From positions 124,001-188,000 of the forward strand of contig NZ_BMPH01000006.1 of NCBI RefSeq assembly GCF_014647495.1: a DNA stretch of 64,000 nucleotides, in the 5' to 3' direction. Source of the DNA: Glutamicibacter protophormiae (GTDB lineage Bacteria; Actinomycetota; Actinomycetes; Actinomycetales; Micrococcaceae). The position numbers were made by a program, and so were the translations under genes. The notes under the pieces were generated by a model. It had not been told where the DNA came from and did not search any database. It saw nothing but the letters and a program-made list of their open reading frames with translations. Shown piece after piece: positions 46,228-52,063 of the stretch. Each line of letters starts with the position of its first letter. Positions within the stretch are counted from its first letter, which is position 1.

Positions 46228-46944
46228 TCAGCACCCCGCCGCGGCGTGGGGCTGCGCGAGCGACATCCCGGCGGCGAGGAGGCGTTGTTCCGCGTCGTGG
46301 AGCACCAGTCCGGAGGGCAGCGCCCCGCCCCAGTACCAGTGGTGCGAGGCCGCCAGTCCCTGCAGGTTCGCCAGGTTGCGCTGGTGCAGCGCCCCGGGCC
46401 GTGCGGGGTAGCTTCCCAGCAGCAGGGTGCCGGATGCGAACCCGCGGCGCACCGTGGCTTCCAGGGTCAGCGCGGTGTGGTTCAGCGTGCCCAGATCCGG
46501 GCGGGCCACCACCACCAGCCCGGCGCCGAGCGCCAGCGCCAAATCCGCGATGGTCTGCCCGGCCGCCGTCAGCCCGACCAGCAGCCCCCCGGCGCCTTCG
46601 ACGAGCACGGTGTCGCTGGATTCGGCCAGCTCGCGGATGCGTTCCAGATGGTCGCCCAGCAACGGCAGCTGCGCCACGGCGGCGGGCCCGCCCTCGACCA
46701 GCGCCGCGTCCACCGGCGCCATGGGTTCGCGCAGCCGGATGCCCTCGCGGACCTCCAGGCCCGCCGGGGACCCGAGCCAGGCGGCGATGTTCTGCGCGTC
46801 GCCGCGCTCCCCGGGCAGCACCCCGGTCTGGGTGGGTTTGTAGACCGCGACGCGCCGGCCCGCGGCGAGTTCGCGGGCGGCCAGGGCCGCGGTGGCGACG
46901 GTTTTTCCGACGTCGGTGTCGGTTCCGGTGATGGCGTAGATCAT
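46228..46944 (-). CDS. bioD: dethiobiotin synthase
   Basis: The enzyme closes the ureido ring of dethiobiotin with CO2 and ATP. It has 238 residues. It starts MIYAITGTDTDVGKTVATAA with the modified P-loop GTDTDVGKT, then KPTQTG and VEGAGGLLVGL. It is last gene of the bioB-A-F-P450-D operon. Its ATG overlaps the stop of the P450 gene by four bases. Confidence 0.95.
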   Translation of the reverse strand: MIYAITGTDTDVGKTVATAALAARELAAGRRVAVYKPTQTGVLPGERGDAQNIAAWLGSPAGLEVREGIRLREPMAPVDAALVEGGPAAVAQLPLLGDHLERIRELAESSDTVLVEGAGGLLVGLTAAGQTIADLALALGAGLVVVARPDLGTLNHTALTLEATVRRGFASGTLLLGSYPARPGALHQRNLANLQGLAASHHWYWGGALPSGLVLHDAEQRLLAAGMSLAQPHAAAGC

Positions 46945-48122
46945 GGCAGGTTCCCTTCGGATGCGGTGCGTCTGGTGCGGACGGCGGCTGGGGCCTGGAA
47001 GGAGAGCAGGTGCTCCCAGTCCGGATGCCGGTCGGCCAGCTCCAGGTCTGGCAGCGCCGCGGCGGCGGCGCGCAGCACCACCTCGGTTTCCATGCGGGCC
47101 AGCCCGGCGCCCAGGCAGCGGTGCAGCCCGTAGCCGAACACCAGAGAATCGTCCTGCGCCTCGGCCAGGGCTCCCCCGGACAGGCGCAGCACCAGCTCCT
47201 CGCCCGCGGCGAAGCGTTGGCCGCCCACCTCCGCGTTGGTCCGGGCGATGCGCCGCCAGGTCGGCACGGAGGAGGCCTGCAGGAGCACCTGCGCCATCAC
47301 CTGGGCGCTGGCCGCTTCGCCGCCTTCCGGCCGCGCACAGGCGGACCAGCTCCCGTCGTGCAGGGCGCTGAACAGGGTTCCCTGGATGAGCATGGCGGTG
47401 GTTTCCTGCCCGGCGATGCCCAGGAAATAGGCCAGGGAAACGATCCGCCTGGTATCCACTCCCGCGCGGTGCAGCGCGGCGTAGAGGTTGCCGTCCCCGC
47501 GTTCCAGCGCCTGGTCGACCGTGCCGCGCAGCCAGGCGTGGTATTCGACCGCGCTGCGGGCCAGCTCCAGCTGGCGCTGCGCGTCCGGCCAGCCCCAGAA
47601 CAGCTCCAGCGAGTCCCGGCTCCAGCGCTTGAGCCGGTCCATGGGCGGCAGCGGGGTGCCGGTCAGCCTGGCCATGACCTCCGGCGGGATGACGGCGGCC
47701 AGCTCGTCGGCCAGGTCCAGCTCCGCCCCGGTGCGGTAGCCAGGCTGCAGCGCCCGGCAGAGCTGGCCGGTGCGCCGGGCGATGAATTCGGCCTGGGCGG
47801 CGACCTTGGCGGGGCTGAAGAAACCGGCGACCACCCGGCGCACGGCCAGGTGCTCGGGTCCGGAGGCGCTGGCCAGCACCGGCGGCAGCGCAAAGCGCCC
47901 GCGGGCCAGCAGGCGCAGCGTGGCCGGGGCCAGGTCGACCGCGGCATGCAGCGCGTTGGCCGGGGTGAAGTCTTCGGCGCGGCGCAGGATCTCGCGGACG
48001 ATCGCCGGGTTCTCGATGCTGCGGTAGCGGTCGGCGATTACCGGCGGGAAGACCTGTTCCAGCGGCCGGGCCAGCGGCGCGGAAGCCGCCACCGGGAGGG
48101 TTCCGGCGTAGGGGCAGCTCAT
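46941..48122 (-). CDS. divergent cytochrome P450 embedded in the biotin operon
   Basis: The protein has 393 residues and no membrane anchor. The heme-binding loop FGYGLHRCLGAGLARME (about residue 340, Cys ligand) and the I-helix oxygen motif GIAGQETTAMLIQ (about 240) are present. The K-helix ExxR motif is missing: the aligned stretch reads QVLLQAS where EELLR is normal. The meander between strand and heme loop is short. The start overlaps bioF by four bases, with a strong SD AAGGAGG, and the stop overlaps bioD by four. By analogy to Bacillus BioI it may cut fatty acyl-ACP to pimeloyl-ACP. That is inference; an unrelated oxidation is possible. Confidence 0.85.
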   Translation of the reverse strand: MSCPYAGTLPVAASAPLARPLEQVFPPVIADRYRSIENPAIVREILRRAEDFTPANALHAAVDLAPATLRLLARGRFALPPVLASASGPEHLAVRRVVAGFFSPAKVAAQAEFIARRTGQLCRALQPGYRTGAELDLADELAAVIPPEVMARLTGTPLPPMDRLKRWSRDSLELFWGWPDAQRQLELARSAVEYHAWLRGTVDQALERGDGNLYAALHRAGVDTRRIVSLAYFLGIAGQETTAMLIQGTLFSALHDGSWSACARPEGGEAASAQVMAQVLLQASSVPTWRRIARTNAEVGGQRFAAGEELVLRLSGGALAEAQDDSLVFGYGLHRCLGAGLARMETEVVLRAAAAALPDLELADRHPDWEHLLSFQAPAAVRTRRTASEGNLP

Positions 48123-49309
48123 GATTCGACCTCCTTGATGGTGCGGGCCACCGTCTCCAGGACGGCGGCGAGGGTGTCGGGGTGATGGTGCGCGTGGGCG
48201 GTCAGGCGCAGCCGGGAGATGCCGTCGGGCACGCTGGGCGGCCGGAAGCAATTGACCGCGCAGCCGCGTTCGCGCAGCAGCGCCGCGGCCGCGGCGGCCT
48301 GGCCGGGGGTGCGCATGCGCACCGACTGCACGGCTCCGGCCGCGGGGTCGATGCGGCCGGCCAGCCGCGCGTGGGCGGCCAGAGTGTCGCGGATCAGCCG
48401 GGTGTTCGCCGCCAGCGCGGCGATGCGCTCGGTGGTGGCCAGGTCCAGCGCCGCCCGCGCCCCGGCCGCGGCGGCCGGGGCCAGCGCGGTGTCGAAGATG
48501 AAGGTGCGGGCGGTGTTCAGCAGGTGCTCGCGCCACAGCTGCGCCTGCGGCCCGCCGAGCAGCACCACGCCGCCCTGGGCGCCCAGCGCCTTGGACAGGG
48601 TGGCGGTCGCCAGCACGTGGCCTGCCTGTTCCAACCCGGCGGCGCGCACCGCGGATCCGCCGGGCACCGCGGCCAGCGAGTGCGCCTCGTCCACCAGCAG
48701 CAGCGCGCCGTACTGCGCGCACAGGGCGGCGGCCCGTTCCAGCGGCGCCGCGTCGCCGAGCACCGAATAGATCGATTCGAGCACCAGCACCACCCGCGGC
48801 TTCGGGGCCGGCGCGTCGCGGTTGGCGCGCAGCAGGGCTTCGGCGGCGGCCAGGTTGTTGTGTTCGAAGCTGTGCCAGGCGGCGCCGGAGAGCTTGGCCC
48901 CGTCGATCAGGCTGGCGTGGGCGTGGGCGTCGAGCAGGAACAGGCTGCCCGGCCCGCCCAGCGCGCCGAGCACCCCGAGGTTCGCGGTGTAGCCGCTGGA
49001 GAAGACCAGCGCCTGCGCGCGGCCGGTGTAGTCGCACAGCGCGGTTTCCAGTTCGCGGTGGATGCCCCAAGTGCCGGAGGCGACCCGGCTGGCACTGGCG
49101 CCGGCTCCCACCGTGCACAGGGCGTTGATGGCCGCGGTGCGCACCAGCGGGTGCGCGCTCAGGCCCAGGTAGTCGTTGGAGGCCAGGTCGTAGAGGTCGG
49201 CGCGGGCGCTGTCGGCGCGCTGCATGTCCCGCTTGGCGCGCACCGCCGCCCGGCCGCGCAGCCACCCGTCCCACGCCGTCGCGGCGGGCGCCGCCGTCAG
49301 CTCACTCAC
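48119..49309 (-). CDS. bioF: 8-amino-7-oxononanoate synthase
   Basis: The PLP enzyme condenses pimeloyl-ACP (or CoA) with alanine. It has 396 residues. LASNDYLGLSAHP lies near the N-terminus, DEAHSLAAV binds the cofactor ring, and the Schiff-base lysine is in TATLSKALGAQGG. GTG at 49307-49309 overlaps the end of bioA by eight bases. Confidence 0.93.
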   Translation of the reverse strand: MSELTAAPAATAWDGWLRGRAAVRAKRDMQRADSARADLYDLASNDYLGLSAHPLVRTAAINALCTVGAGASASRVASGTWGIHRELETALCDYTGRAQALVFSSGYTANLGVLGALGGPGSLFLLDAHAHASLIDGAKLSGAAWHSFEHNNLAAAEALLRANRDAPAPKPRVVLVLESIYSVLGDAAPLERAAALCAQYGALLLVDEAHSLAAVPGGSAVRAAGLEQAGHVLATATLSKALGAQGGVVLLGGPQAQLWREHLLNTARTFIFDTALAPAAAAGARAALDLATTERIAALAANTRLIRDTLAAHARLAGRIDPAAGAVQSVRMRTPGQAAAAAALLRERGCAVNCFRPPSVPDGISRLRLTAHAHHHPDTLAAVLETVARTIKEVES

Positions 49310-50663
49310 CGTGCACCTCGGCGACCGCCGCGGTGAGGGCCGATCCCAGGGTCCGCAGCTGGTCCTCGGTGCAGATGTAGGGCGGCATGACGTAGACCAG
49401 GTCGCGGAAGGGGCGCACCCAGGCGCCGCGCTGGACCGCGGCGCGGGTCACCGCAGCCACCTGCACCGGTGCCTGCAGCTGGATCACCCCGACCCCGCCG
49501 AGCACACGCACCTGGCGCACGCCGGGCAGCGCCCGGGTGCCGGCCAGCGAACTGCTCAGCCCGCGTTCAAGCCGGGCGACCTGGGCTTGCCAGGGGGCCT
49601 GCCCGGGGGCGGTGCCGGCCGGCCCGGCGAGCAGGTCCAGCGAGGCGCAGGCCACCGCGCAGGCCAGCGGGTTGCCCATGAAGGTGGGCCCGTGCAGCAG
49701 CGCGGAGCCGGCGGTTCCGGCGCCCGAATCCAGCGCCGCGGCGACCGCTGCGGTGCAGAGCATCGCGGCCAGGGAGAGGTAGCCGCCGGTCAGCGCCTTG
49801 CCCACGCACATGATGTCCGGCTCGATGCCGGCGTGCTGCGCGGCGAACAGCTTGCCGGTGCGGCCGAAGCCGGTGGCGATCTCGTCGAGGATCAGCAGCA
49901 TCCGGTGCTCGTCGGCGATCTCGCGCAGCACCTGCAGCACCCGCGGCGGGTAGATGAACATGCCGCCGGCGCCCTGCAGCAGCGGCTCGCAGATGATCCC
50001 GGCCAGCGTCCCGGCGTGCTGCGCGGCCATCCGGCGGGCCCGGGTCTCCCAGAGCTGGAGCTCGTCCTCGTCGTAGATCCAGTCCCCGGCGATGGTGCGT
50101 TCGGCGGCCGGCGGGCGGGGCAGGAACAGCTGTTCGCGCGCCAGCGGGGCGAAGGCCGCGTGCATGCCGTCCACCGGGTCGCAGACGCTCATGGCGGCGA
50201 AGGTGTCGCCGTGGTAGCCGCCGCGCAGCGCCAGGAAGCGGCGGCGTTCGGGGCGGCCGCAGGCGTCCTGGTACTGCAGGGCCAGCTTCAGCGCGACCTC
50301 CACGCTGATGGATCCGGAGTCGGCCAGGAACACGTGGCGCAGGCCCTCAGGGGCCAGTTCCACCAGCCGTTCGGCCAGCTCGATGGCCGGCTGGTGGGTC
50401 AGCCCGCCGAACATCACGTGGCTGAAGGCGTCAATCTGGGCATGCGCGGCGGCATCCAGCGCCGGGTTGCGGTAGCCGTGCACCATGGACCACCAGGAGG
50501 CCATGCCGTCGATGACCCGGTGCTCGGCGCCCTGCGCGTCGCGCAGCGTGAGCTCGGCCCCGCCGGCCGCGGTGACCGCGTAGTGCGCCCCGGCATCCAG
50601 CGGCGCGTACGGGTGCCAGAGCAGCCCTGCATCCCGGGTCAGAAGGTCGGTGGCGGTTTTCAT
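49302..50663 (-). CDS. bioA: adenosylmethionine-8-amino-7-oxononanoate aminotransferase
   Basis: The class III aminotransferase makes DAPA with SAM as amino donor. It has 453 residues. It shows LWHPYAPL at the start, SWWSMVHGY (substrate site), [28 protein letters not shown], and the PLP lysine in [15 protein letters not shown] at 50661-50663 overlaps the bioB stop by four bases. Confidence 0.95.
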
Positions 50664-51919
50664 GCGTTCGGGCCCTGCTGGGTTCCGGCACCGCGGCGGC
50701 GCAGCACCGGTTCGCGCGCGGCGCTGGGCCCGCAGCCGGCGGCGGCGCTGCCGCAGCCGGGTGCGTCGGCGGAAGCGGACGGGCCGCAGCCGGTGCCGCA
50801 GCCGCTGGCGCAGCCCCCGGCCGGGGCTTGCTCCTCGTGGGCCGCGGCCGCGTGCGCGGCTTCGCGCAGGCGGCGGGCGACGTCTGCGGGGCTGGAGGCT
50901 TCCTGGCCCAGGACCACGAAGCCGGCGTCGGCGATCATGTCCAGGTCCTTGGCCGCGCCCTGGCCTTCGCTGGTGAGGTAGTCGCCCAGGAAGATGGAAT
51001 TGGCGACCTCCAGCGCGGTGGACTGCAGCGAGCGCAGGTGCATCTCGCGGCCGCCGGCGATGCGCAGCTCCTTGTCCGGGCAGGCCAGCCGCACCAGGGC
51101 CAGGATGCGCAGGCAGGCCAGCGGGGTGAGCAGCCAGGTGCCCTCCATGGGGGTGCCGTCGAAGGGCATCAGGAAGTTGACCGGGATGGACTCCGAGCCC
51201 AGCTCGCGCAGCGCGAAGACGGCTTCGACGAGCTGCTCGGGCGTTTCGCCCAGGCCCACGATGAGCCCGGAGCAGGAGGACAGCCCGGCGGACTGGGCCT
51301 GCTGCACGGTGTCCACCCGGTCCTGGTAGCTGTGCGAGGTGCAGATCTCCGGGTAGAGCGATTCGGAGGTGTTCAGGTTGTGGTTGTAGGCATCCGCCCC
51401 GGCGTCCTTCAGCCGGGCGGCCTGCCCGTCCTTCAGGATGCCCAGGCAGGCGCAGACCTCCACCTGCGGGTGCTCGCCCTTGAGCTGTTCCACCATGGTG
51501 GCCACGCGGTCCACGTCCCGGTCGGTGGGGCCCTTGCCGGAGGCGACCATGCAGACCCGCGAGGCGCCGCCGGCGATGCCGTAGCCGGCCTGGGCGACGG
51601 CCTCGTCAGGCTTGAGCCAGGTGTACTTCAGGATTTCGGCCTTCGAGCCCAGGCGCTGGGAGCAGTAGGTGCAGTCCTCCGGGCACAGCCCGGACTTCAG
51701 GTTGACCAGGTAGTTGACCTTGACGGTGTTGCCGAAGTGCTGGCGGCGCAGGGTGCCGGCGGCGCCGACCAGCGGCAGCGTGGCGAAGTCCGGGGTGGCC
51801 AGCACCGCCAGCGCCTCGGCTTCGGTGATCCGGTGTCCGGAGGCGATCCGGGCGGCGAGCTCGTCGGCGTCGAGGAGCGCGGGCTGGGCGGTTTCTGCGG
51901 CTGCGGTATCCAAGGTCAT
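50660..51919 (-). CDS. bioB: biotin synthase with Cys-rich tail
   Basis: The radical-SAM enzyme inserts sulfur into dethiobiotin. It has 419 residues. The Fe-S cluster motif is [11 protein letters not shown] (about residue 80), and the conserved Cys/Arg residues for the second cluster include [20 protein letters not shown] and ELRIAGGRE. The core ends near residue 345. A tail follows with five Gly-Cys units (Cys at about 370, 374, 378, 389 and 396) in a Gly/Ala/Ser context and a basic end. SD GGAAAGG precedes the ATG at 51917-51919. It is first gene of the operon, behind two BioQ-like boxes. Confidence 0.95.
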
Positions 51920-51992
51920 GGGGTGCCTTTCCAACGGGAGCACCGCGTCCGGATCCTGCCGGCGAGGAGAATGTTCTTCAGGCGCGGCATCC

Positions 51993-52007
51993 TTGAACGG
52001 TGTTCAA
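51993..52007 (-). promoter_or_regulatory. BioQ-type operator 1 upstream of bioB
   Basis: TTGAACGGTGTTCAA is a perfect TTGAAC-N3-GTTCAA palindrome, 74 bases before the bioB ATG. It matches the TGAAC-N3-GTTCA boxes bound by the TetR-type biotin repressor BioQ in mycobacteria. Confidence 0.8.
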
Positions 52008-52048
52008 TGTATGTTGATTACACACCGTACACCCTTGCGGGAGTTTTC

Positions 52049-52063
52049 TTGAACACCGTTCAA
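52049..52063 (-). promoter_or_regulatory. BioQ-type operator 2 upstream of bioB
   Basis: TTGAACACCGTTCAA is a second perfect palindrome, centred 56 bases from the first. The two cover the expected bioB promoter. No bioQ gene is in the window. The remaining intergenic sequence (52070-52340) shows no gene. Confidence 0.8.

Follow-up and report, generated by a model that had tools for sequence, protein, structure and literature searches.

The enzymes BioF, BioA, BioD, and BioB span the path from a pimeloyl thioester to biotin. According to the available portions of two papers, the cytochrome P450 BioI (CYP107H1) produces pimeloyl-ACP and is redundant in Bacillus subtilis, where BioF uses pimeloyl-CoA (PMC11089781, PMC12915131). 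BioI has also been termed unique to B. subtilis in literature available in part. It was also reported, in the accessible part of a further paper, that MkpG, a P450 from Streptomyces virginiae, is essential for the production of alpha-methyl-KAPA, deletion abolishing the product; MkpG was called a BioI homologue there and was proposed to cut the chain to a pimelate analogue (PMC13336041). In addition, BioE is described in partial sources as a diiron oxygenase that carries out oxygen-dependent C7-C8 cleavage of acyl-ACP to pimeloyl-ACP.

The ExxR motif of the P450 K-helix belongs to a brace to which the meander supplies the third residue. CYP157 of Streptomyces is reportedly a P450 family without ExxR in the K-helix, as Rupasinghe is said to have described in 2006, and P450s can therefore lack the motif; we know of no link between CYP157 and biotin. 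It was stated, in the part of a paper that is available, that ExxR stabilises the meander and that mutation of its Glu or Arg gives inactive, misfolded protein in most CYPs (PMC3990721), and activity is therefore not to be assumed in a P450 without it.

Here we describe a P450 encoded in the biotin operon of Glutamicibacter protophormiae, within a stretch of 64,000 nucleotides (the window). Like BioI, it is a P450 in a biotin operon whose proposed product is pimeloyl-ACP, but its kinship to BioI in sequence is remote and its operon neighbours are different. It also differs from BioI, a conventional CYP107, in being without ExxR and meander; the absence of ExxR is the one motif by which it is likened to CYP157. 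MkpG, likened here by description, is an actinomycete P450 for a KAPA analogue and comes from a secondary-metabolite cluster. The overall reaction of BioE is the one proposed here, although BioE is ferritin-like, has no heme, and is unrelated as a protein. The open-licence literature, as far as its text was available, yielded no description of a P450 in a primary actinomycete bio operon, by which novelty is not proven. No pimelate source is assigned to this group in the portions of that literature searched, a gap that a P450 route would fill.

Organization of the biotin operon

The operon and the sites discussed below are as follows (coordinates are those of the window).

46228..46944, reverse strand: bioD, dethiobiotin synthase (TIGR00347, 113.7 bits, above cut-off)
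46941..48122, reverse strand: cytochrome P450 of the biotin operon, 393 aa from an ATG start, with heme Cys336 (open reading frame and translation)
47115..47117, reverse strand: codon of Cys336, the expected axial heme thiolate, within FGYGLHRCLGAG (Cys conserved in 78 of the 79 family rows)
47280..47291, reverse strand: K-helix site Q278-V-L-L281 at the ExxR position (alignment with 5gwe and 78 other family rows)
47397..47414, reverse strand: I-helix AGQETT (237-242), the oxygen-activation motif (Thr241 and Thr242 invariant in the 79 family rows, Glu240 shared by 76)
48119..49309, reverse strand: bioF (TIGR00858, 302.9 bits, the top family, under the equivalog cut-off of 426.45)
48129..48136, reverse strand: putative ribosome-binding site AAGGAGGT of the P450 gene, 6 nt 5′ of the ATG (from the sequence)
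49302..50663, reverse strand: bioA (TIGR00508, 508.9 bits, above cut-off)
50660..51943, reverse strand: bioB, the first gene of the operon (TIGR00433, 381.5 bits, above cut-off)
51994..52006, unstranded: palindromic operator-like site TGAACGGTGTTCA, 5′ of bioB (57 of 87 other bioB loci have a site of this kind, up to one mismatch allowed)
52050..52062, unstranded: second palindromic operator-like site TGAACACCGTTCA (same palindrome scan)

On the reverse strand, the genes follow the order bioB-bioA-bioF-P450-bioD, and adjacent listed reading frames overlap by 4-8 bases. The start codon of the P450 gene (48122-48120) overlaps the stop codon of bioF by 4 nt (ATGA), its own stop codon (46943-46941) overlaps the start of bioD in the same way (ATGA), and its ribosome-binding site is strong. 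The preliminary description had given the same reading frame and translation, with four-base overlaps at both ends, and these hold. The four neighbours were assigned by NCBIfam, bioF scoring below its equivalog cut-off. Since BioF, BioA, BioD, and BioB already reach biotin from a pimeloyl thioester, the missing step lies upstream of them. None of the five operon genes encodes a redox partner. The source genome assembly comprises 3.83 Mb and is 99.99% complete.

A divergent member of the P450 superfamily

The protein matched 260 PDB sequences at E ≤ 0.001 in a phmmer search (best 3.1e-26), and the best 60 of these 260 carry P450 names or names known as those of P450s; a profile of the family matched 479 PDB sequences. 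Motifs were counted in 79 rows, which represent 78 of the 82 P450-containing genomes of the window's taxonomic family (all except G105, G290, G276, and G113) and one genome from outside it (G411), while duplicates within a genome and 13 outgroup rows were treated separately. The heme-thiolate loop FGxGxHxCxG is present as FGYGLHRCLGAG, and its Cys336 is found in 78 family rows, the remaining one being masked (X), and in all 13 outgroup rows. The I-helix motif (A/G)GxxT is present as AGQETT, with Ala237, Gly238, Thr241, and Thr242 common to all 79 rows. His91, Arg95, Thr241, Thr242, Trp289, Arg290, and Arg291 occur in every family and outgroup row (79/79 and 13/13); judging from other bacterial P450s, His91, Arg95, and Arg291 are presumably heme contacts. 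The protein had first been called a P450 from its Cys-heme loop and AGQETT, and both the PDB matches and the retained motifs bear this out.

Because the protein is divergent, Pfam PF00067 misses it (17.3 bits against a gathering cut-off of 22.8), and Pfam-based annotation can overlook such a gene. The nine other P450 rows tested, seven in bio clusters and two not (L168 and L158), all passed with 23.8-103.1 bits, those with a full meander scoring highest. An assignment as a P450-derived glycosyltransferase activator (TIGR04515) was rejected, at 46.8 bits against a curated cut-off of 343. An artefact of sequencing or of reading frame was likewise rejected, as was a pseudogene: in 77 loci the orthologues can be aligned along most of the protein, and they are under selection like that on bioD.

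Against the PDB, the family profile scored highest with 5gwe (205 bits), which we take to be CreJ, followed by P450 RhF (180 bits), presumably CYP116; further matches were CYP125MRCA (155 bits), BioI (3ejb, 118 bits), and CYP124 (108-110 bits). The family has NA and WRR blocks in common with 5gwe and P450 RhF, but these two, as also seen through their kin L155-L158, possess ExxR and longer meanders, and their substrates differ. By the scores, then, the protein is distinct from BioI, as had been proposed, and orthology to BioI/CYP107H1 was rejected on the scores only (5gwe 205 and RhF 180 against 118 bits). The source genome holds a separate 5gwe-type gene (L158) with EVLR at the ExxR position; as a candidate for BioI its product was rejected, being a 5gwe-type protein at 683.6 bits. 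A further P450 on contig 5 was rejected both as BioI, since it is CYP199-like (424.2 bits), and as GcoA-like, its best relative being CYP199.

Distribution, linkage, and selection

Among 295 genomes from the family to which the window belongs, 82 have a clear orthologue (at least 211 bits; the next group reaches at most 119 bits), and it adjoins a bio gene in all 82. The evidence for this linkage comes from the window, 77 fetched loci (L003-L031 and L053-L100), one genome in which the P450 gene lies at a contig edge beside bioD (G105), and three in which the linkage is known by coordinates only (G290, G276, and G113). Six loci (L083, L086, L093, L094, L095, and L099) have the order A-F-D-P450, and the other fetched loci have F-P450-D. 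The preliminary description had raised the conservation of the gene order across Micrococcaceae, and the search of the 295 genomes finds it in the form of this constant linkage to bio genes. The P450 gene is present in 81 of the 100 genomes with bioF, one genome has the P450 gene only (the contig-edge case), 19 have bioF only, and 194 have neither (Fisher p 9.5e-53, a value inflated by kinship).

In two comparisons, dN/dS was 0.36 and 0.33 for the P450 gene, 0.33 and 0.30 for bioD, and 0.30 and 0.40 for bioF; the P450 gene is thus under purifying selection of a strength like that on bioD and bioF. The linkage is not due to chance, since it recurs in each of the 82 genomes and dN/dS is 0.33-0.36. 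It appears very probable that the protein is a conserved P450 of the biotin pathway.

Outside the family, a search of the order found a match at E 1e-40 in 18 of 396 genomes, with at least 372 bits in the outside genomes G411 and G583 and at most 223 bits in the other genomes outside the family. A draw of 394 genomes from the class, which overlaps that of the order, gave eight further outside genomes with at least 261 bits; as only four candidates were scored per genome in both searches, misses are possible. Among the ten outside genomes with a match of at least 261 bits, seven carry the P450 gene no more than 6 kb from bio genes, in varied gene orders; in two genomes, G745 and G836, the bio genes lie on the opposite strand, 2-4.5 kb away. 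In the other three (G1002, G816, and G854), which belong to one genus, bio genes are missing within 6 kb of the P450 relative.

Five plasmid records also matched. A conjugative plasmid of Arthrobacter sp. FW306-05-C (L192) carries bioB-A-F-D-P450 beside recombinases, a plasmid of Arthrobacter sp. StoSoilB13 has the P450 gene with bio genes, and so does a Streptantibioticus cattleyicolor plasmid (two records, one inspected). The Paenarthrobacter plasmid pYJN5-2 carries a P450 relative too, but no bio genes lie in the 6 kb to either side. The cassette on the FW306-05-C plasmid is complete and adjoins an IS110 transposase and integrases, in the manner of a portable biotin module.

Loss of the meander and of ExxR

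The ExxR motif had been described as absent and the meander as shortened, and the alignments agree on both counts. At the K-helix position, the protein reads QVLL opposite EVLR in its best PDB match, 5gwe, and the site is equally aligned with the 78 other family rows. Of these 79 rows, five have ExxR, one has QxxR, and 73 lack the Arg (63 with Ala in its place), while the outgroup retains Arg in 13 of 13 rows, as ExxR in 12 and QxxR in the remaining one. Trp289 and Cys336 are 47 residues apart in the protein; in 12 of the 13 outgroup rows the distance is 61. Within the family, this distance is 43-52 in 75 rows and 62-69 in four (L093, L094, L095, and L099), whose extra residues resemble low-complexity filler. 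The remaining outgroup row, L166, has lost the meander (43 residues) and kept the Arg; L154, with unusual letters at a length of 61, was counted as full. Most, though not all, of the distant biotin-linked relatives outside the family keep both ExxR and the full meander. L167 and the S. cattleyicolor protein are relatives with a full meander.

Alignment A1 comprised 50 selected rows and the tree 56; for scoring on the tree, any length other than 61 counted as lost, filler rows included. The tree requires one change for the meander, two for Arg, eight for Glu, and three for the whole ExxR. The meander thus appears to have changed once, after which Arg would have been lost and Glu become labile. 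This order, meander and then K-helix, follows from a root placed near the 5gwe/RhF-type rows, the root being our placement rather than the method's and some near-root branches being weak (93/76; 87/72 for L166), with long branches flagged. The loss of ExxR would therefore be secondary, marking a single sub-family and not the biotin-linked relatives as a whole. The decay of the motif itself is well supported at the sequence level. A nested clade with intact ExxR (L063, L073, L090, and L102 in the tree; L092 in the alignment only) was considered as an ancestral retention and rejected; as Arg needs two changes on the tree, loss with one regain is the shorter story, on change counts that do not distinguish gain from loss of Arg and a tree in which the K-helix columns were kept.

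Other sources of the pimeloyl moiety

The preliminary description had noted that bioC, bioH, bioW, and bioZ were missing from the window, and for the first three this extends to the source genome: it has no match to BioW, and its best BioC and BioH matches reach 72.9 and 73.2 bits against curated cut-offs of 184.95 and 206.95. For bioZ, it holds in that no FabH-type KAS III exceeds its cut-off, the best of several scoring 280 bits, just below 292, but weak candidates are present, both for a BioZ-like KAS III and for alpha/beta-hydrolases. BioW was also not matched in 50 other genomes tested, and none of the 51 genomes has a BioC match at E ≤ 1e-25.

These 51 include the 19 genomes that have bioF without the P450 gene (L113-L131), and the same gap in BioC and BioW is found in them, so that it does not single out the P450. 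The absence of BioC and BioW was therefore rejected as proof of a role for the P450. It was reported, in the available part of one paper, that BioC (Tam) and three BioH enzymes of Mycobacterium smegmatis long went unrecognised (PMC9302846), and divergent BioC or BioH proteins are thus compatible with our searches; for both reasons, the absence is weak support.

As the 19 genomes have none, biotin genes can persist without the P450, and it is here that the functional claim is weakest. In 14 of the 19, bioB, bioA, bioF, and bioD are all open by a rough open-frame test. The test does not separate these loci from those with the P450 gene, of which 59 of 72 pass, several failures being due to bioB missing from the fetched stretch. 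The 19 genomes may take up precursors or use another route. No common replacement gene was seen by eye in eight of the 19 loci. Six of the 19, from one genus group (L116, L123, L125, L126, L127, and L131), have a bioA whose match is fragmented, leaving a gap around residues 187-210 that resembles an insert; in L131, bioA also contains stops. For Micrococcus luteus, an incomplete biotin operon is described in the part of a paper that is available (PMC12642757).

Proposed role of the P450

We lean towards a BioI-like enzyme, recruited separately from BioI, that makes a pimeloyl thioester by oxidative cleavage of the acyl-ACP chain. In this scheme, a heme-thiolate P450, with heme binding, substrate, and product all predicted, would supply the pimeloyl thioester for BioF: an acyl chain on the acyl carrier protein would be oxidised repeatedly at C7-C8 and cleaved to pimeloyl-ACP, as in the chemistry of Bacillus BioI. 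Electrons would presumably come from a ferredoxin system encoded elsewhere. BioI and MkpG are P450 precedents for such a role. The reading draws further on the linkage and co-occurrence with bio genes, on chromosomes and on plasmids, on the four-base overlaps and the ribosome-binding site, on the open step upstream of BioF, on the purifying selection and the retained residues, and on the different affinities of the two remaining P450s of the genome. Against it stand the 19 genomes without the P450, the relatives located away from bio genes, the reported effects of ExxR mutations, the weak KAS III and hydrolase candidates, and the lack of a redox partner in the operon. We would give even chances to a history in which the P450, recruited apart from BioI as a pimeloyl-forming enzyme, discarded first the meander and then ExxR in steps and kept its function. 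The meander would have been deleted first in the main branch, leaving ExxR free to decay because it normally braces the meander, and the heme ligand with the residues expected around the heme would have been retained throughout.

The same gene context would suit a P450 that acts on the terminal (omega) carbon of a C7 acyl chain, taking CH3 to COOH in three turns and so yielding the pimeloyl group without cleavage of a longer chain. CYP125 and CYP124 are among the PDB matches (155 and 108-110 bits), and we take both to be terminal oxidases, CYP124 being named an omega-hydroxylase in the match table. Neither is a top match, however, we know of no precedent for this route in biotin synthesis, and C7 acyl-ACP is a transient intermediate of fatty acid synthesis, which counts against it; we regard it as unlikely. 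The loss of both ExxR and meander in most members fits a regulatory or structural heme protein of the operon that is an oxygenase no more, and P450-derived non-oxygenases do exist (the TIGR04515 match has an E-value of 2.7e-12, far below the cut-off in score). Nevertheless, the heme Cys, Thr241, and Thr242 are kept throughout, Glu240 is found in 76 of 79 family rows, and selection is as strong as on bioD and bioF, which makes such a protein distinctly unlikely.

An enzyme for an antimetabolite resembling biotin, or for the alteration of an intermediate, that does not serve biotin itself is suggested by MkpG, the BioI-homologous P450 that is needed for alpha-methyl-KAPA according to the accessible text (PMC13336041); we hold this very improbable, as the P450 gene lies inside the bio operon and the operator-like sites recur among relatives. 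Somewhat doubtful, with a modest chance of being right, is an arrangement in which an unrecognised BioC-BioH or BioZ-like pair starts biotin synthesis and the P450 is accessory or redundant in the way of BioI, which overlaps in chemistry with the cleavage that we favour. The 19 bioF-containing genomes that manage without the P450 speak for it, as do, in partly available sources, the redundancy of BioI in B. subtilis and the mycobacterial Tam/BioC and three BioH that escaped recognition (PMC9302846). Against this, 81 of 100 genomes with bioF retain the P450, which is selected like bioD, and no candidate for BioW, BioC, BioH, or a FabH-type KAS III rises above its curated cut-off.

If oxidative cleavage by this P450 is true, it would be a dedicated and portable route, the second P450 oxidative path from fatty acids to pimelate, and a working, vitamin-making P450 could dispense with a brace that is taught as nearly universal. 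The family and its relatives also offer a natural graded set of proteins for probing the roles of ExxR and the meander.

Operator-like sites and the BioB tail

Two perfect palindromes TGAACnnnGTTCA, which we take to resemble the BioQ site, lie 5′ of bioB with their starts 56 bases apart (window 51994-52062). Of 87 bioB loci, counted irrespective of the P450 gene, 57 have a site with at most one mismatch and the other 30 have none; the background was 86 of 1760 windows placed at random in these loci, and such windows may include the sites themselves.

The C-terminal tail of BioB (50660-51943) is rich in Cys in the window; among relatives it varies, with Cys abundant in some genera, and it closes with a strongly conserved RRRGAGTxxxPNA. 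This ending occurs in nearly all BioB proteins of about 58% identity or more, whether or not the P450 is present, and is absent from a BioB type of 32-36% identity. As a guess, the tail might be a docking peptide or a substitute for the auxiliary protein BsaP. In an outlier genome (G745, locus L172), a Cys-containing reading frame of 81 aa, BsaP-like by resemblance, directly follows bioB (L172:12500-12745), and the biotin-linked P450 gene has a small methyltransferase-like gene (L172:5257-5925; best Pfam PrmA) immediately upstream.
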